From the IMG/VR virus record IMGVR_UViG_3300032268_000832, positions 1 to 64,000 of that record: 64,000 nt of DNA; one strand, 5' to 3'. Shown here piece after piece: positions 1 to 13,663 of the stretch. A program made the position numbers and the translations under genes. Each line of letters begins with the position of its first letter. Positions within the stretch are counted from its first letter, which is position 1. This DNA is from a virus. Below the pieces are notes generated by a model that was not told where the DNA came from, searched no databases, and worked only from the letters and a program-made list of their open reading frames with translations.

Positions 1-22
1 TAATCAATTAAATAATTTTATT

Positions 23-701: not shown

Positions 702-713
702 TTCTTACCTTTG
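684..713 (+). promoter_or_regulatory. Bacteroidota-type promoter for the gene at 739
   Basis: TTGGTAG (-33) inside the preceding hairpin and TACCTTTG (-7, 706-713), 26 nt before the ATG at 739. Confidence 0.7.
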
Positions 714-738
714 CACCACCAATTTAAAATAAAATGTT

Positions 739-1038: not shown

Positions 1039-1056
1039 TTTAATTGGTGTGAACTT

Positions 1057-1082
1057 CCCGCAGAAATGCGGGATTTTCTTTT
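1057..1082 (+). terminator. intrinsic terminator
   Basis: CCCGCA-gaaa-TGCGGG (1057-1072) followed by ATTTTCTTTTT; ends the transcript of the 739 gene. Confidence 0.85.
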
Positions 1083-1104
1083 TATAAAAAAAAATGTTAA
1101 AATT

Positions 1105-1136
1105 TTTGGTAGTGTAAAATAATTGTTATACATTTG
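1105..1136 (+). promoter_or_regulatory. promoter for the gene at 1166
   Basis: TTTGGTAGTG (-33) and TACATTTG (-7, 1129-1136), followed by the GTTAAACCAATTAAATTA variant of the shared leader. Confidence 0.8.
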
Positions 1137-1165
1137 TATCGTTAAACCAATTAAATTATATCGTT

Positions 1166-1489
1166 ATGGATTATGTTAATAAAGTTCTTATTTCACTGAC
1201 CGACAATTATGGGTTTGAGTTTGGTAAGAATTACAAAGTTGTTTCTGACAATGGTCGAGAATTAGAATTTGAGAACGGACAACGTTTCTTCAAAGATAGA
1301 ATTGATTTGCATTTTGGCAAAAACTATTCAGAACTATTTGCCAAAGTAAAATATATTGTTGATACCAAAGAAATAGAAAACCATAAATTGTGTATTGAAA
1401 ATATTAGATTGGATAATAGAGTTATCAATAACAAAAAGAAGTTTGCCGAGAACGATAAGTATATCAACCGACTTAAAAAACTTTTGTAA
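1166..1489 (+). CDS. hypothetical protein, 107 aa
   Basis: Unrecognised. The N-terminal half looks like a small beta-rich fold; the C-terminal half is basic and probably helical, which would suit nucleic-acid binding, but no motif proves it. The start is fixed by the shared leader and TTATGG context. Confidence 0.8.
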   Translation: MDYVNKVLISLTDNYGFEFGKNYKVVSDNGRELEFENGQRFFKDRIDLHFGKNYSELFAKVKYIVDTKEIENHKLCIENIRLDNRVINNKKKFAENDKYINRLKKLL

Positions 1490-1494
1490 ATATA

Positions 1495-1526
1495 TTTGGT
1501 AGTGTAAAATATTTGTTATATCTTTG
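1495..1526 (+). promoter_or_regulatory. promoter for the gene at 1552
   Basis: TTTGGTAGTG and TATCTTTG (1519-1526), leader variant CATAGTTAAACC. An open frame in phase begins earlier (1513), but that lies inside the promoter, so translation should start at 1552. Confidence 0.8.
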
Positions 1527-1551
1527 CATAGTTAAACCAATTAAATTAGTT

Positions 1552-1833
1552 ATGGCACATTCAAAAGAATTAATAGCTTTCAAAAAAAGTTTTGAAACCA
1601 ATACAAATATTAAAGTTTTTGGTGTTGAAGAAAATAGAACTTATTATCATTGGAAACGATTGATATTACCAAGTTTAAATTGTCAGGATATGTTAAAAGT
1701 TTCAAACTACATTTCAAACAATTTTTCAACACCAAATAAATTTACTCACTTACAAGTTTCATTGGGAACATATAATGGTAATTTAACCTTAACTTGTGAT
1801 GTTACATATATTAAAGAATTTATTATTAAATAA
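1552..1833 (+). CDS. hypothetical protein, 93 aa
   Basis: Unrecognised small protein. The ATG at 1552 (TTATGGC) is chosen because it follows the leader; the in-frame upstream extension would translate the promoter itself. No signal peptide, membrane span or motif. The next gene is separated by the TGTACAC element rather than by the common promoter. Confidence 0.75.
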   Translation: MAHSKELIAFKKSFETNTNIKVFGVEENRTYYHWKRLILPSLNCQDMLKVSNYISNNFSTPNKFTHLQVSLGTYNGNLTLTCDVTYIKEFIIK

Positions 1834-1837
1834 CCCA

Positions 1838-1854
1838 GTGTACACATTTGTGTC
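1838..1854 (+). promoter_or_regulatory. TGTACACATTTGTGTC element, copy 1
   Basis: Contains the inverted repeat ACACA-tt-TGTGT followed 4 nt later by ACGTATAACC and then the shared AATTAAATTAAAT leader of the DnaA-like gene. It stands where the common promoter normally stands, so it may be an alternative promoter or operator. Confidence 0.55.
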
Positions 1855-1886
1855 ATACACGTATAACCAATTAAATTAAATGACTT

Positions 1887-2306
1887 ATGTATGAAGTTAA
1901 TGAGATAGTAAAAGATTTAATAAAAACCGAAACAGGTATTGATATAAACGAAACAAGCCGATTAAGACCGATAGTTGAAATACGTTCACTTTATTATAAA
2001 ATAGTAAGGGAATTAGCACCAACACAAAGTTATCATCTTATTGGTAAGAGTGTGAAAAAAGACCACGCAAGCGTTATGTATGGTATTGCACAATTTGAGT
2101 TATATGCCAAGTATAATAAGCGTTTAATGTTACATTATCATAATATTAAAAATGCGTTCCTTAAACTTTATGACCATAACAATATTATTGCTTTGGATAT
2201 GGAAATTCAAATATTGGAGTATAAAATAAAAATGCTTAAAGAAAAAAGACTTGAATTAATTAATGCAACAATATTAGAGAATGGTGTTTCTGAACAGCAA
2301 GGGTAA
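1887..2306 (+). CDS. DnaA domain IV-like DNA-binding protein, 139 aa
   Basis: Residues about 25-72 resemble the C-terminal DNA-binding domain of the initiator DnaA: an R-rich helix, a helix-turn-helix region and the signature K-K-D-H-A-S-V at 57-63, matching the DnaA (R/K)DH(S/T)TV motif that contacts the DnaA box. There is no AAA+ ATPase domain. The tail (about 95-130) is probably coiled coil and could dimerise it. Inference: it may bind DnaA-box-like sites in phage or host DNA, as a replication or regulatory factor or a DnaA antagonist. It is driven from the TGTACAC element rather than the common promoter. Confidence 0.7.
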   Translation: MYEVNEIVKDLIKTETGIDINETSRLRPIVEIRSLYYKIVRELAPTQSYHLIGKSVKKDHASVMYGIAQFELYAKYNKRLMLHYHNIKNAFLKLYDHNNIIALDMEIQILEYKIKMLKEKRLELINATILENGVSEQQG

Positions 2307-2394
2307 GGATTGGTATATTATAAAGGGATATAAAATATGGGCGGAAAGCAAAGAACAAGCCGAACAATTATATGAAAAAATAAAAAATTTTTAA
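2281..2394 (+). CDS. small overlapping hypothetical protein, 37 aa
   Basis: Overlaps the last 26 nt of the DnaA-like gene in another frame. The product has a plausible amphipathic pattern (D-W-Y-I-I-K-G-Y then an E/A/K-rich helix) and ends just before the next promoter. It occupies what would otherwise be a gap. Translation is unproven. Confidence 0.45.
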   Translation: MVFLNSKGKDWYIIKGYKIWAESKEQAEQLYEKIKNF

Positions 2395-2401
2395 TAATAA
2401 A

Positions 2402-2432
2402 TTTGGTATATTAAAAAATTGTTATATATTTG
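2402..2432 (+). promoter_or_regulatory. promoter for the gene at 2463
   Basis: TTTGGTATA and TATATTTG (2425-2432), then the canonical leader CACTCACAAACCAATTAAAT. Confidence 0.85.
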
Positions 2433-2462
2433 CACTCACAAACCAATTAAATTTATTATATT

Positions 2463-2732
2463 ATGACAAGACAATTTACTGAAAGAATTGAATACAAAGG
2501 CACACGCTTTGAATCTAAAGTGGGTGTTGAATTTGACCAAGAAAATTGGAATGAGCTTTGGAATAAGGGTGTTATGAATGAAAACCAAATTGTATTGGCA
2601 AATGATTGGGAAACCACTTTTCCACCAAACAAATGGGGTACAAAGTATTCAAAGTATATGTATAGTGCAACGCTTGACAGATTAAGAGCGTGTACCTTTG
2701 GCGAGTTTTATGGTGGTGGTATCGTTGATTAA
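2463..2732 (+). CDS. hypothetical protein, 89 aa
   Basis: Unrecognised, rich in aromatic residues, with a Gly-rich end. First gene of a run (2463-3437) in which the following three genes lack their own promoters but each repeats the leader core AAATTAAATnnCTTATG before its start, so this looks like a four-gene operon. Confidence 0.75.
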   Translation: MTRQFTERIEYKGTRFESKVGVEFDQENWNELWNKGVMNENQIVLANDWETTFPPNKWGTKYSKYMYSATLDRLRACTFGEFYGGGIVD

Positions 2733-2744
2733 ATTAAATGACTT

Positions 2745-2951
2745 ATGAAACTATTAAAAAAATTAGTCAATTTAAACACTGGGTATTGGCTTGAAACACG
2801 TTTATATCAATACAAAGGTAAACTTGAAATTGGTTATGTTCTTTATCAAGGATATACCATATTTGGAATAAATGGTAAAGATAGAATTAATGTTTATGTT
2901 GATTTAAAAGACGCTAAAGAAGATTTAGAAAAACTTAATTTAACTGATTAA
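2745..2951 (+). CDS. hypothetical protein, 68 aa
   Basis: Unrecognised small protein, 12 nt after the previous stop. No promoter of its own; the AAATTAAATGACTT leader core before the ATG suggests the leader acts in translation as well as transcription. Confidence 0.7.
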   Translation: MKLLKKLVNLNTGYWLETRLYQYKGKLEIGYVLYQGYTIFGINGKDRINVYVDLKDAKEDLEKLNLTD

Positions 2952-2963
2952 ATTTAATAACTT

Positions 2964-3257
2964 ATGAAAAATAAAGAATTTGGGTTAGTATTAGATTTAA
3001 CTTGGTTAGAAACCAATGAAAGTGTGTTTGCAATATTGGAACGATTTGCAATTAATTTTTATCGTTTTGTTAATAACAAACACGAAATTAAATTAAATGA
3101 CGATAAAGATAAATTATGCGAGTTTCTTAAATCAAATAATATTGATTTCACTTGTGAAGTTAGCAGAGCAGATGAAAAAGATTTTTGGGTTTCATTTGAA
3201 TTAAAAGCTGATACCTATTTAGACGTTACAGACCGAATTGAATTAAGAGCAAGATAA
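2964..3257 (+). CDS. hypothetical protein, 97 aa
   Basis: Unrecognised soluble protein, third gene of the operon, again with the leader core (AAATTTAATAACTT) before its ATG. Confidence 0.7.
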   Translation: MKNKEFGLVLDLTWLETNESVFAILERFAINFYRFVNNKHEIKLNDDKDKLCEFLKSNNIDFTCEVSRADEKDFWVSFELKADTYLDVTDRIELRAR

Positions 3258-3269
3258 ATTAAATGGCTT

Positions 3270-3437
3270 ATGTTATACGATGAAAATAACCGAGTTATGA
3301 TTAACTCAATTAGTGAAGTAAACAACGCTAAATATAGAGTATCACTAAAAAGAAAAATTAGAAAATTTATACCTAAAGTATTACATAGTTCAATTAATAA
3401 TTTAAGTACAGAAACTTTAGAAAATATTTCATTTTAA
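3270..3437 (+). CDS. small hypothetical protein, 55 aa
   Basis: Short gene after the same leader core (AAATTAAATGGCTTATG), 12 nt after the preceding stop. The product has a basic central segment (K-R-K-I-R-K-F). The conserved leader and spacing make it likely real. Confidence 0.6.
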   Translation: MLYDENNRVMINSISEVNNAKYRVSLKRKIRKFIPKVLHSSINNLSTETLENISF

Positions 3438-3447
3438 TATAAAAATA

Positions 3448-3478
3448 TTTGGTAGTTTAAAATATTGTTATATCTTTG
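3448..3478 (+). promoter_or_regulatory. promoter for the ankyrin gene
   Basis: TTTGGTAGTTTAAAATATTG and TATCTTTG (3471-3478), canonical leader, ATG at 3509. Confidence 0.85.
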
Positions 3479-3508
3479 CACTCACAAACCAATTAAATTA
3501 AATGTATT

Positions 3509-4006
3509 ATGGAAAATTCAATTTTAAATTACGACTTAACAACATTAAAAAATATTGTTAATAAAAAAAATGTTAATGAAATTATTTTTAAAATTTTTGA
3601 TGACGATAAAAAACCAAATTGGACACCATTAATAAAAGTGGCTACTTTAAAAAAGAAAAGAGAAGAAAATTTAAGATACAATGGGGTTGTTAGTTCGTTT
3701 AATTCTAATGACGATTATAAGTTAGCTAAACTACTTATCAATAGTGGTGCTGATTTAAACTATCAAGATAAAAACGGAAATACCGCTTTGATTTATTGTG
3801 TTTATTATAATAATATTAAATTATTAAAATTATTAATTAAGTCAGGTGCTGATTTGAACATAAAAGATAATAATGGTTCAAGTGCATTAATAATTGCGGG
3901 TTATTCAAATAAATTTAATATTGGCGACATTTTAATTAAGTCAGGTGCTGACCAAAGAATAAAAAATAATAACGGAGATAATTATAGTATCTTTTTAAAT
4001 AAATGA
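3509..4006 (+). CDS. ankyrin-repeat protein, 165 aa
   Basis: Two clear and one degenerate ankyrin repeats with the typical cores (L-L-I-x-S-G-A-D-L-N, D-x-x-G-x-T/S-A-L-I) at about residues 40-85, 88-118 and 121-152. Ankyrin stacks bind other proteins, so an interaction partner, perhaps a host protein, is expected, but which one is unknown. The N-terminal 60 residues are basic and unrecognised. The repeats share near-identical DNA (AAGTCAGGTGCTGA twice), pointing to recent internal duplication. The stop overlaps the next start by 4 nt (ATGA), so the two are translationally coupled. Confidence 0.8.
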   Translation: MENSILNYDLTTLKNIVNKKNVNEIIFKIFDDDKKPNWTPLIKVATLKKKREENLRYNGVVSSFNSNDDYKLAKLLINSGADLNYQDKNGNTALIYCVYYNNIKLLKLLIKSGADLNIKDNNGSSALIIAGYSNKFNIGDILIKSGADQRIKNNNGDNYSIFLNK

Positions 4007-4299
4007 AATACATAGACGATTTAAGTTTCTCAAACATTATCAATTTGATACAAGGAGAAGAAATAAAAGGTGCTGATATTCTAAATAATATCGCACACGA
4101 AATGGAAGAAAATAATAAAATAATTGAAAAACTTGAAAGCGATTTGGCTCGTGCTAAAAGTCGTAAAGGTGTTTTAATTGAAGGTTCTCAAAGAGTATTA
4201 CAACACTTGAAAAAAGAATATCCGTTAGCAGTTCAAAGGAATGGTTACATAGTTGTGGTTACAAAAGAAAAAATATCAATTGAACGCAATGTCTTGTAG
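4003..4299 (+). CDS. hypothetical coiled-coil protein, 98 aa
   Basis: Overlaps the ankyrin gene by ATGA, so the two products may act together. Residues about 30-60 form a probable coiled coil (E-E-N-N-K-I-I-E-K-L-E-S-D-L). A basic region follows. No known family. The gene ends directly against an imperfect palindrome (4300-4445). Confidence 0.7.
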   Translation: MKYIDDLSFSNIINLIQGEEIKGADILNNIAHEMEENNKIIEKLESDLARAKSRKGVLIEGSQRVLQHLKKEYPLAVQRNGYIVVVTKEKISIERNVL

Positions 4300-4302
4300 C
4301 AT

Positions 4303-4441
4303 TACTGCCAACGTTTGATGATTGTATTAGTAGCGTTCTAAAATTACCAAACGTTTCAGATTAAAAATTAGATTACAATAAAACGCAAAACATTAAATTA
4401 TTCACAAACGTAGCTATTGATACAATTATTTGTTAGTAGCT
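4303..4441. repeat. imperfect palindrome, attC-like
   Basis: The outer arms ACTGCCAACGTTTG...ATTGTATTAGTAGCG and CGTAGCTATTGATACAATTATTTGTTAGTAG pair imperfectly. The ends CCAAC and GTTAG resemble the core boxes of an integron attC site. It has no gene and no copy of the common promoter, although the following genes (4461, 4690) need one. Could also be a small palindromic element or a structured RNA. Confidence 0.35.
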
Positions 4442-4460
4442 GTGTTTAAATTCAAAAATT

Positions 4461-4688
4461 ATGGAAAAATCAGCAGTACAATTTTTAGTGATAAAATTAG
4501 AAGAATTAATGTTAAAAAATGACTTCAATGAAATTTCAGATGAAGAATATTTGAAAGAAAAAGAAAATATTTTGATTATATCTAAACATAAAGAAAAAGA
4601 AAATATGATTAACTTTTTAAAGTCAGTTTTTCAACAAGAAAATTTTGATTATGAAAAAGCTTATAACGATTTTTTAAAACAAAAGTAA
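4461..4688 (+). CDS. hypothetical protein, 75 aa
   Basis: Unrecognised, very charged (K/E) and mostly helical. It follows the palindrome at 4303-4441 rather than a promoter, so it may have arrived with that element. One nucleotide separates it from the next gene. Confidence 0.65.
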   Translation: MEKSAVQFLVIKLEELMLKNDFNEISDEEYLKEKENILIISKHKEKENMINFLKSVFQQENFDYEKAYNDFLKQK

Positions 4689-4689
4689 A

Positions 4690-4887
4690 ATGATAAAAGT
4701 AAATTTAAAATTAATTAGTGAATTTCTCCCGTCAAAAGAAGAAGAAATTGAAATTACATTAGCTGAAATTATTGAATTAGCTAAAGAAAAAATAAAAAAT
4801 CAATATGAAAATGATGTTTATAATACTATTATTTATAAAGGATTTTCTTTTACAGATTCATTAAAAGAAAAAGAAGATATAAAATAA
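4690..4887 (+). CDS. hypothetical protein, 65 aa
   Basis: Unrecognised small protein of the beta-then-helix type, cotranscribed with 4461. Its stop lies just before the next promoter. Confidence 0.65.
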   Translation: MIKVNLKLISEFLPSKEEEIEITLAEIIELAKEKIKNQYENDVYNTIIYKGFSFTDSLKEKEDIK

Positions 4888-4894
4888 TTTTTTT

Positions 4895-4919
4895 ATTTCG
4901 GAAATATTTCATATATTTG
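4895..4919 (+). promoter_or_regulatory. divergent copy of the promoter, for 4945
   Basis: TATATTTG (4912-4919) with a weak -33 (TTTCGG) and a different leader (CATAACAATTTAAAAAC) from the other copies in this arm. Confidence 0.6.
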
Positions 4920-4944
4920 CATAACAATTTAAAAACAAATAGAA

Positions 4945-5400
4945 ATGAAACTAATAAAAATGACAGATTATATTTCACAAAAAAGAGATATAATAGACGA
5001 AGAAATGAGTAACGAAGACAGATTAACTATTTTACAATGTATTTTTGATTATAGTAAATTTTTAAAGACACCCTTAAAGTTAGATATGTTTATCCCTTGT
5101 GATGAAAAAATGAACATTTTAAAAAAACCTAAAAACAAAAGTAATTTAGGTAGTGGAAAAACTGATAGCGTTGAATTGTTAAAATACGAAAACAAGTTAA
5201 GAGATTACAGTTTTGCACTATCAAAGGTGTTATTTAAAGATTTTCATTTACACAAAGATGATGAAGATAACTTTAAAAAATGTGTTGCTACTCCTGGTTT
5301 TGTTTTACCATTTGAAGTATTATACACAATGAAAATTGAGGATATAGTTGATAACGATATTAAACTTACAAGTTTCGGACTTGCCACAATACATCAATAA
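4945..5400 (+). CDS. hypothetical protein, 151 aa
   Basis: Unrecognised. Helical N-terminal half, short K/N-rich linker near residues 58-72, then a second helical part. No motif or signal. It has its own divergent promoter and leader. Confidence 0.75.
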   Translation: MKLIKMTDYISQKRDIIDEEMSNEDRLTILQCIFDYSKFLKTPLKLDMFIPCDEKMNILKKPKNKSNLGSGKTDSVELLKYENKLRDYSFALSKVLFKDFHLHKDDEDNFKKCVATPGFVLPFEVLYTMKIEDIVDNDIKLTSFGLATIHQ

Positions 5401-5439
5401 TTTAGTATAGTGTTTGTCGAAAATAAATAAAAAAGTTTT
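5401..5439. repeat. 39-nt direct repeat, copy 1
   Basis: TTTAGTATAGTGTTTGTCGA and the following bases recur at 6941-6979 with one mismatch. Both copies lie immediately upstream of a TTTGGTAG promoter. Confidence 0.75.
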
Positions 5440-5448
5440 TAATAATTG

Positions 5449-5479
5449 TTTGGTAGTTTAATTAATTGTTATATATTTG
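5449..5479 (+). promoter_or_regulatory. promoter for the gene at 5510
   Basis: TTTGGTAG and TATATTTG (5472-5479), canonical leader. Confidence 0.85.
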
Positions 5480-5509
5480 CACTCACAAACCAATTAAATT
5501 TATTTAGTT

Positions 5510-5716
5510 ATGAGCAAATATCAAACAAAAATAGTTGACGCATTAAAAAACGGAGCTAAATTACAATGCACAGAGGGTGCTAATTATAAAACGTGGTTAG
5601 TTTACCCTAATGGTAAAATAGAAAATATTAGACGTGATTCAGCAAATAAAGTTTGTTTAGATTATGAAAATAAATTAGTGTTTGGGTTAAATGAGGGTAT
5701 AAGTTGGAAAAAATAA
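5510..5716 (+). CDS. hypothetical protein, 68 aa
   Basis: Unrecognised small basic protein, probably beta-rich. First of a two-gene unit with 5727. Confidence 0.7.
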   Translation: MSKYQTKIVDALKNGAKLQCTEGANYKTWLVYPNGKIENIRRDSANKVCLDYENKLVFGLNEGISWKK

Positions 5717-5726
5717 TTTTAATAAA

Positions 5727-5933
5727 ATGGAAGTCAAGTTAAAAAATGATGGCGAAAAAACCCCTAAAAGTATTCAAGCTGAAATTGAATTGAATAATAA
5801 AACAGATGATTGGGGTTATTTTAATCTTAAAATAATTGGATATGGAGGGAATGTTACACACGCTAAAATTAACTTAAAATATCAAATAGATGATTTAATT
5901 ACTGAACTACAAAATTTTAAAAATAGTTTATAA
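5727..5933 (+). CDS. hypothetical protein, 68 aa
   Basis: Unrecognised small protein with alternating hydrophobic/charged residues typical of beta strands. Follows 5510 by 10 nt and shares its promoter. Confidence 0.65.
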   Translation: MEVKLKNDGEKTPKSIQAEIELNNKTDDWGYFNLKIIGYGGNVTHAKINLKYQIDDLITELQNFKNSL

Positions 5934-5980
5934 TTTATAATCTATACACACCAATATAGTTAAATTTTCGTTTTTTCAGT

Positions 5981-5990
5981 ATATTTATAT
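5981..5990 (+). promoter_or_regulatory. ATATTTATAA-class box before 6004
   Basis: ATATTTATAT 13 nt before the ATG; the only copy in this arm that directly precedes a gene. Confidence 0.4.
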
Positions 5991-6003
5991 ATAAAAAAAT
6001 AGT

Positions 6004-6264
6004 ATGGAAAACGAAATGAGAAAACACATTGACAAGTTTAATAATTTTATTAAAGAAGATATTATTAATAAAGGGGTTAAAACATCAACTAGGTTAGTTC
6101 AAGTTGATTATGAAGGTAAAAAAATGAACGCTGTTGCTATTGGATACGCATCTGGTCCTTATTTTAAGGAAGTTTATTATTTATTAGACGATATTCAATA
6201 TGATAATAATGATTTTAATAATGTAAAAGAAATTAATGGCTCGGATTTAATTATTGGTAGTTAA
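6004..6264 (+). CDS. hypothetical protein, 86 aa
   Basis: Unrecognised. Unlike its neighbours it is preceded by the ATATTTATAT box typical of the structural arm, so it may be expressed with late genes. No motif seen. Confidence 0.7.
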   Translation: MENEMRKHIDKFNNFIKEDIINKGVKTSTRLVQVDYEGKKMNAVAIGYASGPYFKEVYYLLDDIQYDNNDFNNVKEINGSDLIIGS

Positions 6265-6287
6265 TTTTTTTTGGTATTATATAAATT

Positions 6288-6319
6288 AAATAACCCACTT
6301 AAAAAAAAGTGGGTTATTT
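6288..6319 (+). terminator. terminator hairpin inside the 88-bp repeat
   Basis: Perfect 13-bp stem AAATAACCCACTT/AAGTGGGTTATTT with an A6 loop, directly abutting TTTGGTAT of the next promoter. Confidence 0.75.
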
Positions 6320-6320
6320 A

Positions 6321-6351
6321 TTTGGTATATTAAAATATTGTTATATCTTTG
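6321..6351 (+). promoter_or_regulatory. promoter, 108 nt upstream of 6459
   Basis: TTTGGTATA and TATCTTTG (6344-6351). Elsewhere the ATG follows the -7 box by about 26-35 nt; here the leader is broken after AACCAATTA and the next ATG is 108 nt away, as if something had been inserted. Confidence 0.8.
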
Positions 6352-6429
6352 CACTCACAAACCAATTATAAAAGTACAAAACAGAAAACAAATTAATAAC
6401 CAAAGCCTTAATTGCTACAATATATTGTT

Positions 6430-6723
6430 ATGCATTCGGCTTTTTATCCACAATTATTATGGCAATTAAAATAGATGAATCACAGGAATATTTATTTGAA
6501 AAAAATCAAAATGTATGTGTTGTAGGTAAATTTCCAATCAATGCGACAAGATTATTTGTAACTAAACAAAAGAAAATAATAAAAGGCTATTGCACTTCTT
6601 GGTGGCAAAATGGTGGTCATTTTAAATCTTCTTTTTTGATTCTAAACGAAAGTTGCTCACAAGCTGATGCATAACGTTTTGCGTATAAAAAATCGTTTTA
6701 ATGTTTTTTATACGATGTTATAA
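6430..6723. mobile_element. candidate integron-type gene cassette
   Basis: A GTTATGC box (6430-6436) precedes gene 6459-6674, and GCATAAC lies at its 3' end (6670-6676), followed by an attC-like hairpin: outer boxes ATAAC/GTTAT, an unpaired spacer, an inner stem CGTATAAAAAA/TTTTTTATACG and a short terminal loop (to about 6723). Box order, inner and outer stems and unpaired spacer all fit a folded attC. No integrase is in the window, so this is inference from structure. Confidence 0.4.
6459..6674 (+). CDS. hypothetical protein of candidate cassette, 71 aa
   Basis: Unrecognised. Rich in aromatic residues and with four cysteines. It lies between the GTTATGC and GCATAAC boxes of the candidate gene cassette, and its reading frame ends within GCATAAC. 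Its leader differs from that of every other gene in this arm. These features suggest recent acquisition. Confidence 0.65.
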   Translation: MAIKIDESQEYLFEKNQNVCVVGKFPINATRLFVTKQKKIIKGYCTSWWQNGGHFKSSFLILNESCSQADA

Positions 6724-6986
6724 GATAGTATTTTTTGTGATAAAAGAAGCACCAAATGGTTGCTCAATGTAAAGATACCAACAATAAGGGTAGCGGGTGT
6801 ACAAAAGACCGTTTTAATACTATTTCGTTGGGTTTGGGTGGATGAAACTATAACTGCGGTTGAAACGTACCGTTCACAAAAAATATTTTTTATAACTAAT
6901 ATATGTTATTAATATTTGTTAACATTAATGAAATCAATACTTTAGTATAGTGTTTGTCGAAAATAGATAAAAAAGTTTTCTAAATA
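6675..6986. other. gene-free stretch with inverted repeats
   Basis: About 310 nt without an open frame. It holds the attC-like stem (to 6723), an 11-nt inverted repeat TATTTTTTGTG/CACAAAAAATA (about 6729-6739 and 6876-6886) enclosing some 135 nt of higher GC content, a small ATAAC...GTTAT palindrome near 6893-6911, and the second copy of the 39-nt repeat (6941-6979). It may be an RNA or a remnant of an inserted element. Confidence 0.4.
6941..6979. repeat. 39-nt direct repeat, copy 2
   Basis: One mismatch to 5401-5439; again directly upstream of a promoter. Confidence 0.75.
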
Positions 6987-7017
6987 TTTGGTAGTTTAAA
7001 ATATTGTTATATCTTTG
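6987..7017 (+). promoter_or_regulatory. promoter for the gene at 7047
   Basis: TTTGGTAGTTTAAAATATTG and TATCTTTG (7010-7017), leader variant CATCGTTAAACC. Confidence 0.85.
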
Positions 7018-7046
7018 CATCGTTAAACCAATTAAATTATATCGTT

Positions 7047-7205
7047 ATGAGTTCAAATAAAATGATTAAAAAATTATTATCAATAAATAATAATTATAAT
7101 AAAAAATGGTTAAAATCTTTATCTAAAGATTATTTAAACAAATTACTTATTGATAATATGATTATATCACAAGGTTGTCAAAATAAATTGATGTTAAATT
7201 TTTAA
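7047..7205 (+). CDS. small hypothetical protein, 52 aa
   Basis: Short basic protein after a complete promoter and leader, with ATG in the TTATG context, so expression is likely. No family recognised. It is followed by 7220 after 14 nt. Confidence 0.65.
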   Translation: MSSNKMIKKLLSINNNYNKKWLKSLSKDYLNKLLIDNMIISQGCQNKLMLNF

Positions 7206-7219
7206 TTTTAAAATTAATT

Positions 7220-7630
7220 ATGGCTACAATAGAAAAAAAAGAATTTGCTTTATCACAATTAGCACCTTATTACGCTAACCCAAGCACTTGTGGGTATGAT
7301 AAAGAAAAGAAAACTTGTGAATACCTTACAACCGATGGGCGTATGTGTGTTGCAGGAAAGAATATGATTGAACCTAAAATTGGTTTAGTCAAGGGTATTG
7401 ATGATATACTTGCTGATTTAGACCACGAACAAGAGGGTTTATTTAAACCCGAAGTTGTTGGAATTTTAACATCAGTTGAATGGCGACGTATGCAATGTAT
7501 TCACGATAGTATTGCATTAGAACCAAACGACAAAGTTAGACTTAAAGTAACAATATTGCGATTAAATTTATTCACGATTGAAGAATTTGAGGAACGTGCA
7601 GAATTATTAAAAAATAATTTGGTAGTTTAA
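7220..7630 (+). CDS. hypothetical Cys-containing protein, 136 aa
   Basis: Compact N-terminal region with three Cys in C-G-Y-D...K-T-C...R-M-C-V-A-G-K (about residues 24-47), which could bind metal, followed by a helical C-terminal half. I do not recognise the family. The -33 box of the next promoter lies within its last codons, a sign of tight packing. Confidence 0.75.
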   Translation: MATIEKKEFALSQLAPYYANPSTCGYDKEKKTCEYLTTDGRMCVAGKNMIEPKIGLVKGIDDILADLDHEQEGLFKPEVVGILTSVEWRRMQCIHDSIALEPNDKVRLKVTILRLNLFTIEEFEERAELLKNNLVV

Positions 7631-7648
7631 ATAATTGTTATATCTTTG
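7618..7648 (+). promoter_or_regulatory. promoter for the gene at 7678
   Basis: TTTGGTAGTTTAAATAATTG and TATCTTTG (7641-7648); the -33 box overlaps the end of the upstream gene. Confidence 0.85.
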
Positions 7649-7677
7649 CACTCACAAACCAATTAAATTAAATTGAT

Positions 7678-7956
7678 ATGAATTTAGTAGATAAAAGCGA
7701 ATTAGGAAATATTGAAGAAACTAAAATAATAGAATATAAAAATGGTGTTATTCAAGGTATTAAATTAGTTAGAACTAAAGCAACAGGGGAAGTTAGAACA
7801 CAATATATTGCTTATTTAAAACATAGTGTTTACCCAAGTGGAATTTTACGTTTTGAAACTTGTTTAAATGGTGGTGTTATTACAAACGTAAATCAAGCAA
7901 TTAACCAAGCAAAAATATTTGTTGATTGGAAAACAACAAAAGATTTGGTAAATTAA
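7678..7956 (+). CDS. hypothetical protein, 92 aa
   Basis: Unrecognised, mainly beta in appearance. Start fixed by the shared leader. The last codons supply the TTTGGTA box of the next promoter. Confidence 0.75.
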   Translation: MNLVDKSELGNIEETKIIEYKNGVIQGIKLVRTKATGEVRTQYIAYLKHSVYPSGILRFETCLNGGVITNVNQAINQAKIFVDWKTTKDLVN

Positions 7957-7975
7957 AATAATTGTTATATCTTTG
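7944..7975 (+). promoter_or_regulatory. promoter for the lipoprotein gene
   Basis: TTTGGTAAA within the 3' end of 7678-7956 and TATCTTTG (7968-7975). Confidence 0.85.
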
Positions 7976-8005
7976 CACTCACAAACCAATTAAAACACTT
8001 AAACA

Positions 8006-8221
8006 ATGAAAAAATTAGTAGTATTATTTATCGTTTCAATAACATTCGTTTCTTGTTATTCAACCAAAGAAATTGTTGATGTACCATTAAAAGATGTTTA
8101 CATTCAATATAAAGAAACTAAATATCAAGTGTATAGATGTAGTGATAAATTTAATTATATTCTTAAATTAGACAAAAAAGGTAGATTGATTAGACAACAA
8201 GTTTATCTTGGTATAAAATAA
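8006..8221 (+). CDS. small lipoprotein, 71 aa
   Basis: The N-terminus is a typical type II signal peptide: M-K-K, a hydrophobic core, then lipobox F-V-S-C with the Cys at residue 17 as predicted lipidation site. The mature part is only about 55 residues and unrecognised. Phage lipoproteins are known in superinfection exclusion and lysis control, either of which could apply; the sequence does not decide. Note a second exported protein gene at 10150. Confidence 0.75.
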   Translation: MKKLVVLFIVSITFVSCYSTKEIVDVPLKDVYIQYKETKYQVYRCSDKFNYILKLDKKGRLIRQQVYLGIK

Positions 8222-8238
8222 ATATTTTTATATATTTG
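8208..8238 (+). promoter_or_regulatory. promoter for the gene at 8274
   Basis: TTGGTATA lies in the last codons of the lipoprotein gene; TATATTTG at 8231-8238; canonical leader. Confidence 0.75.
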
Positions 8239-8273
8239 CACTCACAAACCAATTAAATTAAATTAAATGTATT

Positions 8274-8597
8274 ATGGCAGTTACTAATAGATACGCAAAA
8301 AGACTTCTTTTGGTTGATGAACTAATCAAGTTGAAGTATGATGTTTCCCCGAAGAAAATTAGTCCAAGAAAAAAGAGTTATATTATATCGAAAGATAATA
8401 TAATTTATAGAATGGATTTTAATACTGATTGGGTTACAATTAATCAAGACCAAGATAAATTGTATTGCGGAATAAATTTATTGAGTGGTAAAAGAATTGC
8501 TAATTGTATGGATAATCATTTGGTAAAGTTATTTAATGATGTTGTAGGTATTTTATATAATAAAACTAATATTAACGTACCAACAATTATTTTATAA
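8274..8597 (+). CDS. hypothetical protein, 107 aa
   Basis: Unrecognised basic N-terminal half (R-Y-A-K-R, K-K-I-S-P-R-K-K-S), then a more beta-like part. The basic charge would allow nucleic-acid contact, but no fold is evident. Confidence 0.7.
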   Translation: MAVTNRYAKRLLLVDELIKLKYDVSPKKISPRKKSYIISKDNIIYRMDFNTDWVTINQDQDKLYCGINLLSGKRIANCMDNHLVKLFNDVVGILYNKTNINVPTIIL

Positions 8598-8602
8598 AAA
8601 TA

Positions 8603-8634
8603 TTTGTGAGTGTAAATTATTTGTTATATATTTG
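8603..8634 (+). promoter_or_regulatory. promoter for the 25-aa membrane peptide
   Basis: TTTGTGAGTG and TATATTTG (8627-8634); shortened leader (CACTCACAAACTAAATT). Confidence 0.75.
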
Positions 8635-8663
8635 CACTCACAAACTAAATTATTCAGTTATAT

Positions 8664-8741
8664 ATGAAAACTAAAAAAATTAAATGGCACAAATATTTTA
8701 TTGTTGCCTTTGGTATATGGTTAATAAATTTATTATCATAG
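8664..8741 (+). CDS. single-span membrane micropeptide, 25 aa
   Basis: K-rich start followed by a hydrophobic stretch (F-I-V-A-F-G-I-W-L-I-N-L-L) long enough for one membrane span. It has its own full promoter. Small phage membrane peptides often act on the host envelope; the target here is unknown. Confidence 0.5.
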   Translation: MKTKKIKWHKYFIVAFGIWLINLLS

Positions 8742-8757
8742 TGTACACATTTGTGTC
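8741..8757 (+). promoter_or_regulatory. TGTACACATTTGTGTC element, copy 2
   Basis: Begins at the stop codon of the micropeptide; followed after 4 nt by ACGCGTAGTAC and AATTAAATTA. Upstream of gene 8826. Confidence 0.55.
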
Positions 8758-8825
8758 TATTACGCGTAGTACTCATTAAATTAAATTATATGACAACGAT
8801 ATATAAACCAACAAATTAAAAAAAA

Positions 8826-9152
8826 ATGAAAGTATTAACAGCAGAATTAGTAGCATCGAATAAAAGAGAACGAATCTCTGGCGGTGTCTACATTGAATTT
8901 GAAACAACTGAAAATGTGAAAAAAGATGACTACTTTAAAGTAAAAGTAGAAGACTTTAGTTATGATTTTCAAGCAAATGGAGTAAAAGTAGAAGGGGATA
9001 AATTGAAAGTAACAGCAAGAGAAGTTGGATATTGGGCACAAAAACTTGACAGAAAGGGCGTTGATTTGAGATTAGTTATCGGAAGCGATGTAATTGCTGT
9101 TACTGATGAATCAGAAAAGTCTAAAATATACGAAAGGTCTTGTTGGTGTTAA
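8826..9152 (+). CDS. hypothetical protein, 108 aa
   Basis: Unrecognised acidic-to-neutral protein, probably beta-rich, ending C-W-C. The ATG follows A9 rather than the TTATG leader. A nine-codon open frame (near 8790) lies in the leader and could be an attenuating peptide, but this is speculative. Confidence 0.7.
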   Translation: MKVLTAELVASNKRERISGGVYIEFETTENVKKDDYFKVKVEDFSYDFQANGVKVEGDKLKVTAREVGYWAQKLDRKGVDLRLVIGSDVIAVTDESEKSKIYERSCWC

Positions 9153-9165
9153 CAAATGTATTTAA

Positions 9166-9198
9166 TTATGGTAAAGTAAAATAATTGTTATATCTTTG
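9166..9198 (+). promoter_or_regulatory. promoter for the gene at 9230
   Basis: TATGGTAAAG (variant -33) and TATCTTTG (9191-9198), leader with CACAAAACC. Confidence 0.8.
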
Positions 9199-9229
9199 CA
9201 CTCACAAAACCAATTAAATTTATTCAGTT

Positions 9230-9610
9230 ATGATAATACAAATAAAACAATACAAATATGAGAAGACCGAAACGTCTTCAATGGATTTAGAGTTGCCAGA
9301 AGAAACGACTTATTTTTTTGAAACTCACGTTAGACGTTCAATAAGAATTAAACCCATATTCACAACGTGGAACAAGGTACGATACGACAAAGAAGAAGAA
9401 TTGTATTATTTTGAGGTTACTTGTGTTTATTTGTCTTCTAAATGTAAGATTGAGAAGTTTAGAGTTAATTTAGACGATTTCAAAAAAGATAAAGAGGTAA
9501 TTCAAAAGGATAACTTTTTAAATGCGTGGGTTAATGATTGGTTTGACAAGCGAACCAAAGAGCAGTTTGATGTTGATTTGAAAATAGCTATTGATAAAAT
9601 AAATGAATAA
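9230..9610 (+). CDS. hypothetical protein, 126 aa
   Basis: Unrecognised; alternating hydrophobic segments and many aromatic/charged residues. No export signal or motif. Monocistronic. Confidence 0.75.
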   Translation: MIIQIKQYKYEKTETSSMDLELPEETTYFFETHVRRSIRIKPIFTTWNKVRYDKEEELYYFEVTCVYLSSKCKIEKFRVNLDDFKKDKEVIQKDNFLNAWVNDWFDKRTKEQFDVDLKIAIDKINE

Positions 9611-9613
9611 TTA

Positions 9614-9645
9614 TTTGGTAAAGTAAAATAATTGTTATATCTTTG
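9614..9645 (+). promoter_or_regulatory. promoter for the gene at 9677
   Basis: TTTGGTAAAGTAAAATAATTG and TATCTTTG (9638-9645); nearly identical to the preceding copy. Confidence 0.85.
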
Positions 9646-9676
9646 CACTCACAAAACCAATTAAATTTATTGTATT

Positions 9677-10066
9677 ATGAAAATCAATTTAGTAGAAGTA
9701 CCAAGACCAATGGTAAGCAGTTTTATGATGTTTGCTGAACCTGACTTAAATTTATTAAGAGAAACCAAAACAATAAGAGTTTCTTTTCATCACATTACCA
9801 AAACAAGAATTTCAACAAGTATTCAGTTTGGAGAATATTGTGTTAAAGCCAATAAATTTATTGACGGATATAAAATGCACAAAGACGTACAATGGAATCA
9901 TTTTAGTAGCGGACAACAAACAAGCCATTATTTTGTTAAATCAAAAAAACAAAATTATGATGTTTATAAAGAGTTTGTCATTAAATTAATTGAGAGCGTA
10001 ATAAAAGATAATTTCAAAATGGAATTAGACGAAATTACCATTAATTTGGAACAAAGAGAATTTTAA
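9677..10066 (+). CDS. hypothetical protein, 129 aa
   Basis: Unrecognised soluble protein with own promoter. The C-terminal 40 residues appear helical then beta. No diagnostic motif. Confidence 0.75.
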   Translation: MKINLVEVPRPMVSSFMMFAEPDLNLLRETKTIRVSFHHITKTRISTSIQFGEYCVKANKFIDGYKMHKDVQWNHFSSGQQTSHYFVKSKKQNYDVYKEFVIKLIESVIKDNFKMELDEITINLEQREF

Positions 10067-10080
10067 CAAAATTTTAACAT

Positions 10081-10104
10081 TTTCCCACTTGTATTAGTGG
10101 GAAA
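10081..10104 (+). terminator. hairpin overlapping the -33 box
   Basis: Perfect 9-bp stem TTTCCCACT/AGTGGGAAA with loop TGTATT. The -33 TTG (10089-10091) lies at the loop. No long T run follows, so it may be a terminator or an operator. Confidence 0.5.
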
Positions 10105-10118
10105 TTGTTTTACCTTTG
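10089..10118 (+). promoter_or_regulatory. promoter for the exported protein gene 10150
   Basis: TTGTATTAG in the hairpin loop and TACCTTTG (10111-10118), 31 nt before the ATG. Confidence 0.75.
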
Positions 10119-10149
10119 CACTCACAAAACCAATTAAATTTATTGAATT

Positions 10150-10614
10150 ATGAAAAAAGTATTATTAGTATCAGTATTATTTTTAGTTTCTACATTAACA
10201 TTTTCACAATGTTATAGAAGTAAAAGAAATTACGATAGAGAAAGTCATTTTGGACTTGTTGCTAACATCGGTACACTTAAATCATTAGGTGGCGAAATTT
10301 ACGTTAAATTTAATAACCATATAATCGGTGGCGGTTATGCAGGGGAAATTAATGGTGCTAAAGTGGTATCAGAAGAATTTAAAAACGAAACACTATATTT
10401 AACCTATGGTTATCAATATGAAAAATATACCTTTGGTGTTAGATATGGTAAACAAAATAAAGCAAGTTGGATTGATACAACTACAAAAGAAGTAACTCCT
10501 TATTCAACAATGGTTGGCGGTTATATGGGTTACAATTTTACGAATAAAGTTGCTATTAATTTAGGTTACGATACATTTAGCCAAGTAACAATAGGTATTG
10601 TTATGGGGTTATAA
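10150..10614 (+). CDS. exported beta-rich, outer-membrane-like protein, 154 aa
   Basis: A classical signal peptide (M-K-K, hydrophobic core, cleavage after T-F-S before Q, as common in Flavobacteria) is followed by about 130 residues of short alternating strands rich in Gly, Tyr and Phe (Y-G-Y-Q-Y-E-K-Y, G-G-Y-M-G-Y-N-F), the look of a small outer-membrane beta-barrel. The last residue is Leu after G, not the usual aromatic. Inference: it may sit in the host outer membrane and block receptors or adsorption by other phages. A soluble periplasmic protein is the alternative. Confidence 0.7.
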   Translation: MKKVLLVSVLFLVSTLTFSQCYRSKRNYDRESHFGLVANIGTLKSLGGEIYVKFNNHIIGGGYAGEINGAKVVSEEFKNETLYLTYGYQYEKYTFGVRYGKQNKASWIDTTTKEVTPYSTMVGGYMGYNFTNKVAINLGYDTFSQVTIGIVMGL

Positions 10615-10662
10615 ACAATAAAATTAATATCCATAATGTTAATTTGATTTAAAGTTGATTTG

Positions 10663-10702
10663 AATAAGGGTTGTTAAATTTAACAATCCTTATTTTTTTT
10701 TT
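10663..10702 (+). terminator. intrinsic terminator
   Basis: AATAAGG-g-TTGTTAAA/TTTAACAA-t-CCTTATT stem followed by about ten T. Confidence 0.8.
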
Positions 10703-10711
10703 TAGTATTTG

Positions 10712-10742
10712 TTTGGTATATTAAAATATTGTTATATATTTG
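10712..10742 (+). promoter_or_regulatory. promoter for the gene at 10776
   Basis: TTTGGTATATTAAAATATTG and TATATTTG (10735-10742), leader variant with AATAACC. Confidence 0.85.
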
Positions 10743-10775
10743 CATAGAATTAATAACCAATTAAATTAAATCATT

Positions 10776-11033
10776 ATGGGACACGAACAATTATTTAACG
10801 CATCAGAGCAACAACTTGCAGATTTTTGTCAAGCAAACATTAACAACAAAATGCAGTTAACACTCAAAGGACAAGGCAATTTTAAACACATTTCAGCAGT
10901 AGGATTGAATATTTGTTGTGTAAGTGTTAGAATGCTCGGGAAAGATAGTTATTATTACTTTGGTTGTATTAGAGCGCATATATATAACGAACTATTATAT
11001 AAGTTTGACCATAGACATAAACGCAGAAGTTAA
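10776..11033 (+). CDS. hypothetical protein, 85 aa
   Basis: Unrecognised; Cys-Cys pair at about residues 47-48 and a basic C-terminus (H-R-H-K-R-R). The stop overlaps the first base of the second 88-bp repeat. Confidence 0.7.
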   Translation: MGHEQLFNASEQQLADFCQANINNKMQLTLKGQGNFKHISAVGLNICCVSVRMLGKDSYYYFGCIRAHIYNELLYKFDHRHKRRS

Positions 11034-11039
11034 TAAATT

Positions 11040-11071
11040 AAATAACCCACTTAAAAAAAAGTGGGTTATTT
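11040..11071 (+). terminator. terminator hairpin in the second 88-bp repeat
   Basis: 13-bp perfect stem, A6 loop, abutting the next -33 box. Confidence 0.75.
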
Positions 11072-11072
11072 A

Positions 11073-11103
11073 TTTGGTATATTAAAATATTGTTATATCT
11101 TTG
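11073..11103 (+). promoter_or_regulatory. promoter for the gene at 11133
   Basis: TTTGGTATA and TATCTTTG (11096-11103). Confidence 0.85.
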
Positions 11104-11132
11104 CACTCACAAACCAATTAAATTATTTAGTT

Positions 11133-11261
11133 ATGAAATCAATTTCAGTTTCTTTTTACGCTAAAACTTCTGACAACAAAGAAGTTAAATTAGAACAAAA
11201 TCCGTTTGTTGAAGTGTATCTTAAAACACCAAAAGAAACAACCCTTATTTGTGTTAATTAA
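11133..11261 (+). CDS. small hypothetical protein, 42 aa
   Basis: Start chosen at 11133 (TTATGAAA after the leader); an in-frame extension upstream would lie in the promoter. Beta-like, no family. Next gene follows with the leader core only. Confidence 0.6.
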   Translation: MKSISVSFYAKTSDNKEVKLEQNPFVEVYLKTPKETTLICVN

Positions 11262-11281
11262 CCCAATAAATTAAATGACTT

Positions 11282-11548
11282 ATGAATGTAGATAATAAAC
11301 TAATAGCAGAATTTTTAGGTTACTCACAACCGCACCCTGATTATCCTGATACAACATATTGGTATAAAAAAGACTTTCCACCACTTACAATATTATCTTT
11401 TGACACTGATTGGAATTGGTTAATACAAGTAGTAAAAAAGATTGAGAGTTTGAACAAATTAGATAGTGTATTAATAAACACTGACATCAAAGAAGTTTAC
11501 AACGCTTGTGTAGAATTTATTAAGTGGTATAACGAACAACCTAAATAA
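11282..11548 (+). CDS. hypothetical protein, 88 aa
   Basis: Unrecognised, Trp/Tyr-rich N-terminal part, then helices. Preceded by AAATTAAATGACTTATG without a promoter, so cotranscribed with 11133. It resembles small proteins that recur in phages, but I cannot name a family. Confidence 0.7.
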   Translation: MNVDNKLIAEFLGYSQPHPDYPDTTYWYKKDFPPLTILSFDTDWNWLIQVVKKIESLNKLDSVLINTDIKEVYNACVEFIKWYNEQPK

Positions 11549-11559
11549 ATTAAATCACT

Positions 11560-11631
11560 ATGAAAAAATTAATTATTATAAAAGCAGTTATATTACTTGT
11601 AGTGATACTATTAATCTATCTTTTAAGATAA
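11560..11631 (+). CDS. single-span membrane micropeptide, 23 aa
   Basis: M-K-K-L then an almost wholly hydrophobic stretch (I, V, L, A) ending L-L-R: one membrane span. Preceded by the leader core AAATTAAATCACTATG. Third gene of the 11133 operon. Comparable to the peptide at 8664. Confidence 0.5.
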   Translation: MKKLIIIKAVILLVVILLIYLLR

Positions 11632-11636
11632 GGTTA

Positions 11637-11652
11637 TGTACACATTTGTGTC
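11637..11652 (+). promoter_or_regulatory. TGTACACATTTGTGTC element, copy 3
   Basis: Followed after 4 nt by ACGTATATAACC and the shared leader of the 11687 gene, as in copy 1. Confidence 0.55.
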
Positions 11653-11686
11653 TATTACGTATATAACCAATTAAATTTAATGAATT

Positions 11687-11977
11687 ATGTCAGAATTAGT
11701 AACCAATAGCACCACAGATAATAAATTGATGTGGAGAGTAAATACACCTCAATTACTTAAAGAAATTATGCAAAATAATGAAGTGGCAATATTATCAAAA
11801 CCACTTGAAATATTTGCTACAATACTTGCAGAAGTAGGGGAAAGAGCAAGTGAATTAAATGACCCTAAATTAAACGCTCTTATGTGTCGTTTGGCAATAT
11901 ATGAAGTTGCAGACCCATACGACAAAGAATATAATTCAGAGTTAACCAATGATACAATAAAAAAAGGATACCAATAA
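11687..11977 (+). CDS. hypothetical protein, 96 aa
   Basis: Mostly helical, acidic, unrecognised. Expressed from the TGTACAC element. A strong terminator follows. Confidence 0.75.
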   Translation: MSELVTNSTTDNKLMWRVNTPQLLKEIMQNNEVAILSKPLEIFATILAEVGERASELNDPKLNALMCRLAIYEVADPYDKEYNSELTNDTIKKGYQ

Positions 11978-12008
11978 ATTAAACCACAACCAACACAACA
12001 ACCAAGAA

Positions 12009-12032
12009 ACGCCCCAAAAGGGCGTTTTTTTA
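12009..12032 (+). terminator. intrinsic terminator
   Basis: ACGCCC-caaaa-GGGCGT followed by T6AT. Confidence 0.85.
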
Positions 12033-12106
12033 TTGTTTAAAGCGTTTTTATTCAAAAATGGTATATTGATACCAAAATTAATTAAACGTGCCTTAAAACG
12101 TATGTA

Positions 12107-12122
12107 TGTACACTTTTGTGTC
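12107..12122 (+). promoter_or_regulatory. TGTACACTTTTGTGTC element, copy 4
   Basis: One mismatch to the others. It precedes no gene but is 20 nt before the tandem repeats; a CACGTG palindrome (12130-12135) takes the place of ACGTAT. Confidence 0.5.
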
Positions 12123-12141
12123 AGCGCCCACGTGCAAGGCA

Positions 12142-12269
12142 AATAAATTAAACCTCGTGAATAAATTAAACCTCGTGAATAAATTAAACCTCGTGAATAA
12201 ATTAAACCTGATGAATTAAACCTGATGAATTAAACCTGATGAATTAAACCTGATGAATTAAACCTGATG
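12142..12269. repeat. tandem 18-bp and 14-bp repeats
   Basis: Four 18-bp units AATAAATTAAACCTCGTG (the fourth ending GATG) are followed by four 14-bp units AATTAAACCTGATG. No spacers. The AATTAAA core echoes the gene leaders. The arrangement resembles replication iterons. Confidence 0.85.
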
Positions 12270-12328
12270 AATAAATTTATTTAGTTATTGCAGCATAAAA
12301 TAATAAATAAATAAATTTATTATCACGT

Positions 12329-12538
12329 ATGCGTGTAGCGTGTGTATGTGTGTGTATGTATGCGTGTAGCGTGTGTATGTGTGTGTATGTATGTGCGTAG
12401 CGTGTGTATGTGTGTGTATGCGTGTGTATGCGTGTGTATGCGTGTGTATGCGTGTGTATGCGTGTGTATGTGTGTGTATGCGTGTGTATGCGTGTGTGCG
12501 TAGCGTGTGTGCGTAGCGTGTGTGTGCGTATGCGTGTT
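12329..12538. repeat. GT-rich alternating purine-pyrimidine tract
   Basis: Two 31-bp units plus one of 30 bp (12329-12420), then 10-bp units CGTGTGTATG. From 12400 to 12502 purines and pyrimidines alternate without a break (103 bp), the pattern that favours Z-DNA; elsewhere only the TAGCG steps break it. It is not coding. Confidence 0.85.
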
Positions 12539-12590
12539 GATTATTATTAAATTAATAACACTAAAAAAAAATTTAAAGTTTTTTATCTTT

Positions 12591-12623
12591 TTTGTTGTAT
12601 ATTAAATTTATTTTATATCTTTG
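12591..12623 (+). promoter_or_regulatory. promoter for the gene at 12675
   Basis: TTTGTTG and TATCTTTG (12616-12623), with a longer, different leader (52 nt to the ATG). Confidence 0.7.
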
Positions 12624-12674
12624 CGGTGTTCAAAAAGAACGAAATTAAATTTTTAATCATTAAATTCTTACATT

Positions 12675-13235
12675 ATGGAAAATCAAGTTTTAAGAGTTAC
12701 AGAATTAGAGTTAAGCGAAATTTTAAAAAATTTCAAAGTTGTTAAGGGTATGGCGGTTTTTGGTACTATCTTCCAAACTACTATACCAAAAGCGTTAGTA
12801 AAAGATAGAATTACAAAAGAAAAAAACCCTTTTGCGGTTATTCAAAAGCAAAGTAAAGTAAGTTGTATTTTTAACGCTGATTACGAAAAGCAAGTTGTTA
12901 ATCAATTAAAGCGTGAAGATAAACCCGAAACTGATTACCACAAAGGTAATGCGGTTATGGAATTAGAATTTTTTGGTAATAATGACTTTTTTTGTAGAAA
13001 TGTAAAAAATCAAAAATCGGTTGTTAGATACCGACCAAATGACAATGTTAAACCTACTACGGAATATTTTGCTGATGATAAAAAAGTAAGTTTTGAACAA
13101 GTTAAAAATTTGTTGCCTGAAACAAGTAAAGCGACAAATCAAGGTACTGAAAGAGAAATTTTATGGCGAACAATTTATCTTTCAAACATAAACGAAATAA
13201 CGATAAATAAAGTTAAGTATATCGTTATAAGATAA
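12675..13235 (+). CDS. hypothetical protein, 186 aa
   Basis: Soluble, basic N-terminal two thirds, no recognisable family; possibly a beta-rich nucleic-acid-associated protein, but this is only an impression. It sits alone between the repeat locus and the C-rich tract, so a role at that locus (replication or its control) is possible. Own promoter and terminator. Confidence 0.75.
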   Translation: MENQVLRVTELELSEILKNFKVVKGMAVFGTIFQTTIPKALVKDRITKEKNPFAVIQKQSKVSCIFNADYEKQVVNQLKREDKPETDYHKGNAVMELEFFGNNDFFCRNVKNQKSVVRYRPNDNVKPTTEYFADDKKVSFEQVKNLLPETSKATNQGTEREILWRTIYLSNINEITINKVKYIVIR

Positions 13236-13242: not shown

Positions 13243-13274
13243 AATAAGGGCTAAATTTTAGCCCTTATTTTTTG
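13243..13274 (+). terminator. intrinsic terminator
   Basis: AATAAGGGCTAAA/TTTAGCCCTTATT stem followed by T6. Confidence 0.85.
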
Positions 13275-13432
13275 CCCTATAATTAAATGTTAAATTTATG
13301 TTAAAATTTATATTATTATTTGTATATCTAATTTATTTTACAGCAACTCAAATAAAGCGTTTTAAACAACTTTGTTTAATTCTGGACACGATATACCTTT
13401 TTACAAAGATAATTCAATACAAGCAAAATACA

Positions 13433-13480
13433 CCCCCTATACACCCCCCTACACCCCCTTCCTCGTTACCCCCCTTCCCC
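13433..13480 (-). other. potential G-quadruplex (G runs on minus strand)
   Basis: Five runs of four to six C on the + strand, separated by 2-10 nt, give consecutive G4-G6 runs on the minus strand with loops TGTA and TGTATA. In a genome this AT-rich such a block is not expected by chance. Confidence 0.7.
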
Positions 13481-13663
13481 TACGTTACCCATGCCGAGCC
13501 AAAGGTGGGGCATGATGATGTTCGCGAAATTTTTCCTGGAAATTTTTTTAGATGAAAAAAAGGGACCTATATAAGATTTTTTTTTTCTGGGGAATTTTTC
13601 GACTTAAAAAAAGAACACCCCTTTTTTCAAAAAAATTTTTTTAGGAATTTTTTGGGGTAAAAA

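Follow-up and report, generated by a model that had tools for sequence, protein, structure and literature searches.

The closest described counterparts of the locus analysed here are the intergenic minisatellites and simple-sequence repeats of bacteria and phages, which, like its 10-bp units, are non-coding, arranged head to tail and variable in layout and copy number among relatives. Other known systems resemble it in part: Z-forming (GT)n tracts possess a long alternation made up mostly of TG steps, phase-variation repeats are slippage-prone tandem repeats near a promoter, and the iteron arrays of replication origins are direct repeats next to A/T-rich DNA. Compared to known minisatellites, the present tract is unusually long and near-perfectly alternating in an AT-rich phage, and it is situated upstream of a promoter and not inside one. 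All the same, it is a genuine and conspicuous repeat that belongs to an ordinary class, and its relatives offer a clean natural set for comparison.

The window, i.e. the whole stretch of DNA that was analysed, comprises bases 1-64000 of a 306,463-bp virus record (G000, IMGVR_UViG_3300032268_000832) and has a G+C content of 30%; counts concerning the uniqueness of the tract use the whole record. The large terminase of this phage is T4-like, with about 30% identity to homologues of Microcystis and Flavobacterium phages, and its genes are equipped with Bacteroidota-type promoters (TTG-N-TAnnTTTG; for the TTG ... TAnnTTTG consensus of the sigma-ABfr type, see PMC6847099). The host is presumably a member of the Bacteroidota. 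Bases 1-13,235 contain small rightward genes, many of which have their own promoter, and appear to constitute an early-type region. The locus was compared with related contigs, among which G001 (IMGVR_UViG_3300042564_005059), G002 (IMGVR_UViG_3300017917_003637), G003 (IMGVR_UViG_3300046002_008519) and G004 (IMGVR_UViG_3300028666_000043); presence and absence of the tract were called in G000-G004, the contig of G005 ending too early for such a call. The end of the early-type region is organized as follows:

12004..12035, + strand: intrinsic terminator ending the upstream operon (AACGCCCCAAAAGGGCGTTTTTTT), kept in G001, G002 and G003
12089..12141, + strand: conserved stem-loop with the 15-bp early-region element GTACACTTTTGTGTC (12108-12122)
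12142..12277, + strand: separate tandem array upstream of the GT tract, 3.8 copies of AATAAATTAAACCTCGTG followed by 5.2 copies of AATTAAACCTGATG
12324..12537, + strand: GT-rich tandem tract of 214 bp with core unit GTATGCGTGT, units nearly identical
12538..12591, + strand: A/T-tract linker leading from the GT tract to the promoter, with a length of 52-54 bp in three genomes
12592..12623, + strand: Bacteroidota-type promoter TTGTTGTATATTAAATTTATTTTATATCTTTG matching the consensus (-33 TTG, -7 TAnnTTTG)
12675..13235, + strand: 186-aa gene, last of the early region, 91% identical in G001 and 46% in G004

The promoter downstream of the tract has both elements of the sigma-ABfr type (TTG ... TAnnTTTG). 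The 186-aa protein gave no family match in Pfam or PHROGs and a poor structure model (pLDDT 53), and an Rfam search of 1-16 kb found no RNA family. Among deposited phages no match was obtained for this protein, the tract region or the conserved element downstream of it, the low-complexity filter of BLAST possibly masking the tract.

The preliminary description, made from the sequence only, had reported a GT-rich tract at 12329-12538, devoid of a coding role and unlike the AT-rich genome. These observations were borne out, with the tract placed at 12324-12537: the 210 bp originally described contain 85 G, 84 T, 22 A and 19 C, against 30% G+C in the window, and no ORF of at least 60 aa covers the tract. 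It is present once in the 306,463-bp record. Tandem Repeats Finder assigns it a period of 10, 16.4 copies and a score of 221, the top score in the window, and its head-to-tail units thus fall within the 6-100 bp of minisatellites. Nine successive 10-mers starting at 12406 read GTATG(C/T)GTGT, and a 31-bp block is found in near-duplicate at 12338 and 12369. Differences between the 10-mers are transitions throughout, so that the alternation of purines and pyrimidines is preserved; it is interrupted at GTA|GCG as sole break point, yielding the following runs:

12324-12337, 12338-12368, 12369-12399, 12400-12502, 12503-12515 and 12516-12537, + strand: alternating purine-pyrimidine runs of successively 14, 31, 31, 103, 13 and 22 nt

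Of the "103 alternating steps" counted earlier, the unbroken run of 103 nt (12400-12502) stands, while the steps number 102. By chance, the longest run is expected to have a mean length of 15 nt and a maximum of 20 nt (100 first-order Markov simulations of 64 kb each).

Orthologous tracts occur in two relatives. In G001, a tract of about 250 bp at the same site consists of GTATGCGTGTAACGTGT units of 15-19 bp and a pure GT stretch, and the adjoining gene is 91% identical to the 186-aa gene of the window despite the differing tract. In G003 the tract measures about 90 bp and has the same core; it immediately follows a terminator and precedes the promoter of the last early gene. The three tracts have GTATGCGTGT(A/G)CGTGT in common, which is probably the ancestral unit, and differ in copy number and layout. 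In G002 the locus is present without the tract, a tandem AACGTTTCTTT being found at the tract position, and its last gene is of the G003 type (61% identical). Likewise, the 46% homologue of the 186-aa gene in G004 has a bare promoter and no tract. An exact 29-nt piece of the tract recurs in a single further viral contig, which is unrelated and G+C-rich and contains about three units.

We weighed these comparisons against the possibility that the tract is an assembly artefact or a contaminant. The record is an assembly from a public collection of uncultivated viruses, and since repeats are often misassembled the exact copy number may be wrong. Two other assemblies, however, hold orthologous but non-identical tracts with conserved flanks, so assembly collapse or contamination, which the preliminary description named as grounds for dismissing the tract, is scarcely credible.

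At one and the same locus, the tandem structure thus differs in copy number and layout between three phages (214, ~250 and ~90 bp) and is absent from two relatives, G002 and G004. The explanation to which we give roughly even chances of being correct is that of a slippage-driven minisatellite upstream of the last early promoter, with at most a mild effect on the phage. The starting point would have been a short GTATGCGTGT(A/G)CGTGT seed ahead of the promoter that serves the last early gene; this seed would have been copied repeatedly through replication slippage or unequal exchange, and the tract rebuilt lineage by lineage. Since its position is kept, its unit layout is not and the tract is sometimes missing, fast turnover by slippage or unequal exchange is suggested as the cause of its growth. 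The site seems prone to repeats, because a different array lies just upstream (repeats of AATAAATTAAACC, rearranged in G001 and absent from G003) and because the tandem AACGTTTCTTT occurs there in G002. As G002 and G004 have the locus without the tract, it is dispensable; any effect would be mild, the tract acting as an upstream spacer or locally absorbing the negative supercoils behind the promoter, without the phage depending on its sequence. If this neutral reading is right, the locus is a well-documented case of rapid repeat turnover in a phage. Early-gene leaders were considered as a source of the tract and rejected; G001:77501 shares 12 nt of the G001 unit and other leaders 6-9 nt, which is suggestive.

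Three observations do not sit easily with a minisatellite. A neutral tract with a G+C content near 50% would be expected to approach the 30% of the genome, yet three phages retain it. The distance between tract and promoter is constant within 2 bp, the first promoter TTG following the tract end at 52 bp in G000, 54 bp in G001 and 53 bp in G003. Finally, the 10-mer differences in the window are all transitions that keep the alternation, although alternation-breaking changes do exist in G001 and G003 (GTGGGCG, GTCTGGGCG). Both the unchanging distance to the promoter and the survival of a tract with 50% G+C in a genome with 30% make a function conceivable. The linker and promoter of G000, G001 and G003 align better than shuffled sequences. 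In line with a minisatellite, the tract keeps its place between terminator and promoter although in G003 an unrelated gene follows: the last early gene differs by lineage, being either the 186-aa gene (window 12675-13235) or an unrelated 204-aa protein (L038:7196-7810), and BLASTP found no homology between this gene in the window and its counterpart in position in G003. This gene is exchanged between lineages, whereas the promoter region and the downstream element stay.

The same promoter distance bears on phase variation by slippage, which the preliminary description had suggested. In the usual sense this is not supported: the tract is non-coding and ends 52-54 bp before the -33 TTG, and, in contrast to phase-variation repeats, it alters neither a reading frame nor the spacing between the -33 and -7 elements. 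Another way to account for the constant distance and for the core common to three genomes is a putative array to which a DNA-binding protein of the phage or the host would bind, recognising a GTATGCGTGTA core and acting on the promoter 52-54 bp downstream. Such an array would serve as an upstream activating or silencing region, with sites one helical turn apart in the window, where the 10-bp unit would bring the copies onto one face of the helix. The tract further holds 10 of the 18 GTATGCG heptamers of the 306-kb genome, and 12 nt of the G001 unit (TATGCGTGTAAC) recur once in a G001 early-gene leader. Given that unit spacing varies from 10 bp in the window to 15-19 bp in G001 and that two relatives have no array, we regard this explanation, although compatible with the data, as unlikely.

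Strong Z-DNA potential was also claimed for the tract, and on paper this holds. Its perfect alternation over 103 nt far exceeds the 15-20 nt reached by chance, and a simple two-state estimate, with a mean cost of about 1.43 kcal per dinucleotide, predicts a flip of 30-102 bp once the superhelical density reaches about -0.04 to -0.07, the value varying with the size of the domain. The junction cost in this estimate was checked in PMC3024258; the dinucleotide energies and a supercoiled domain of the phage DNA are assumed. By this estimate a B-Z flip would be within reach. The tract could then turn into Z-DNA under the negative supercoiling behind RNA polymerase and buffer torsional stress between the preceding operon and the last early promoter, directly upstream of which it sits; its single-strand folding is weaker than that of shuffled sequences, which indicates that hairpins are not the point. 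Against this, the TA step in each 10 bp raises the cost, and AT steps are poor Z-formers (PMC3024258); in G001 the alternation is broken about once per unit, with transversion breaks in both G001 and G003. Compared by sequence with (GT)n tracts, the window tract likewise deviates by its TA step every 10 bp and its phase breaks at GTA|GCG. With the tract also missing in two relatives, it is not required for any superhelical control such as the preliminary description had proposed, and torsional buffering as its role, though compatible with the data, is rather unlikely.

A broader proposal, which we put forward tentatively and consider somewhat improbable, is that a family of large Bacteroidota phages keeps re-growing a Z-prone GTATGCGTGT array on the upstream side of the last early promoter, at a fixed distance of 52-54 bp. 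The array would be a control element, acting through topology or protein binding, and would stay with the promoter while the gene is exchanged. Near-perfect Z-prone tracts that occur naturally at a constant promoter distance, with close relatives that have or lack them, would constitute a ready test of their effect on transcription in bacteria.

An origin function had equally been put forward. The tract might serve replication, as an origin or, in the recombination-dependent mode, as a site where strands pair preferentially: it is GT-rich and adjoins an A/T-rich linker, the phage has a T4-like terminase, and lineages have swapped the gene that directly follows. RecA prefers GT-rich DNA as a substrate, and T4-like phages replicate in a recombination-dependent way. 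No evidence for an origin was obtained, however, as the GC skew shows no inflection or change of sign at the site. In contrast to iteron arrays, the tract has no conserved unit spacing (units of 10 bp in the window and of 15-19 bp in G001) and is missing from two relatives. Since a conserved element 950 bp downstream is also a better candidate, this role is highly improbable for the tract.

The downstream element comprises the following features:

window 13273-13660: conserved non-coding element directly following the last early gene's terminator
13454-13490, - strand: G-quadruplex motif in this element, about 950 bp downstream of the tract

It consists of a C-rich stretch, followed by CATGATGATGTTCGC(G/A)AAATTTTT and then by AAATTTTTCTGGGAAATTTTT-like repeats. 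No other G-quadruplex motif was found in the 306 kb, and each of the six related contigs has one at the same place; between the window and G001, much of the element is more similar than the neighbouring gene. A search of the genome contigs with the element found nothing. It is a stronger candidate for a conserved DNA structure than the GT tract and a candidate origin, packaging or transcription-boundary element.

A GTATGCG-rich site upstream of a DUF932-like gene in G001-G003 was considered as a second copy of the tract and rejected, as it forms strong stem-loops after a stop codon:

L025:8905-8995, L038:9578-9705 and L002:4140-4170: stem-loops upstream of the DUF932-like gene

These reach a z of about -4 in G001, G002 and G003, whereas the fold of the window tract is poorer than that of its shuffled versions, and at least one apparent compensatory change between G002 and G003 was noted by eye. 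The stem-loops are probably terminator-like, and the GTATGCG they have in common with the tract may be due to coincidence or to a common sequence origin; it is given no weight in the argument on the tract. An alignment search of the genome contigs for the DUF932-like gene found nothing.

The 15-bp element of the stem-loop upstream of the tract, GTACAC(A/T)TTTGTGTC, is an ACAC-loop-GTGT palindrome with 17 matches in G000-G003. Its window copies (1840, 8743, 11638 and 12108) are confined to the early-type region, and the element is mostly located between cistrons, about 40-50 nt ahead of start codons. The single degenerate copy is G001:91648, which has two changes.

At least 14 otherwise different proteins of the phage share an N-terminal tag of MKxxIK(Q/K)LLRE(N/G/A/S)-like residues:

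window 14666 (- strand), 14715, 17834, 18439, 27454, 32669 (- strand), 59136 and 61103 (- strand): proteins with the N-terminal tag
record 200514, 201709, 203675, 212249, 213762 and 239202: further proteins with the N-terminal tag

The internal head proteins of T4 carry a capsid-targeting signal, and by analogy the tag could possibly be such a signal.
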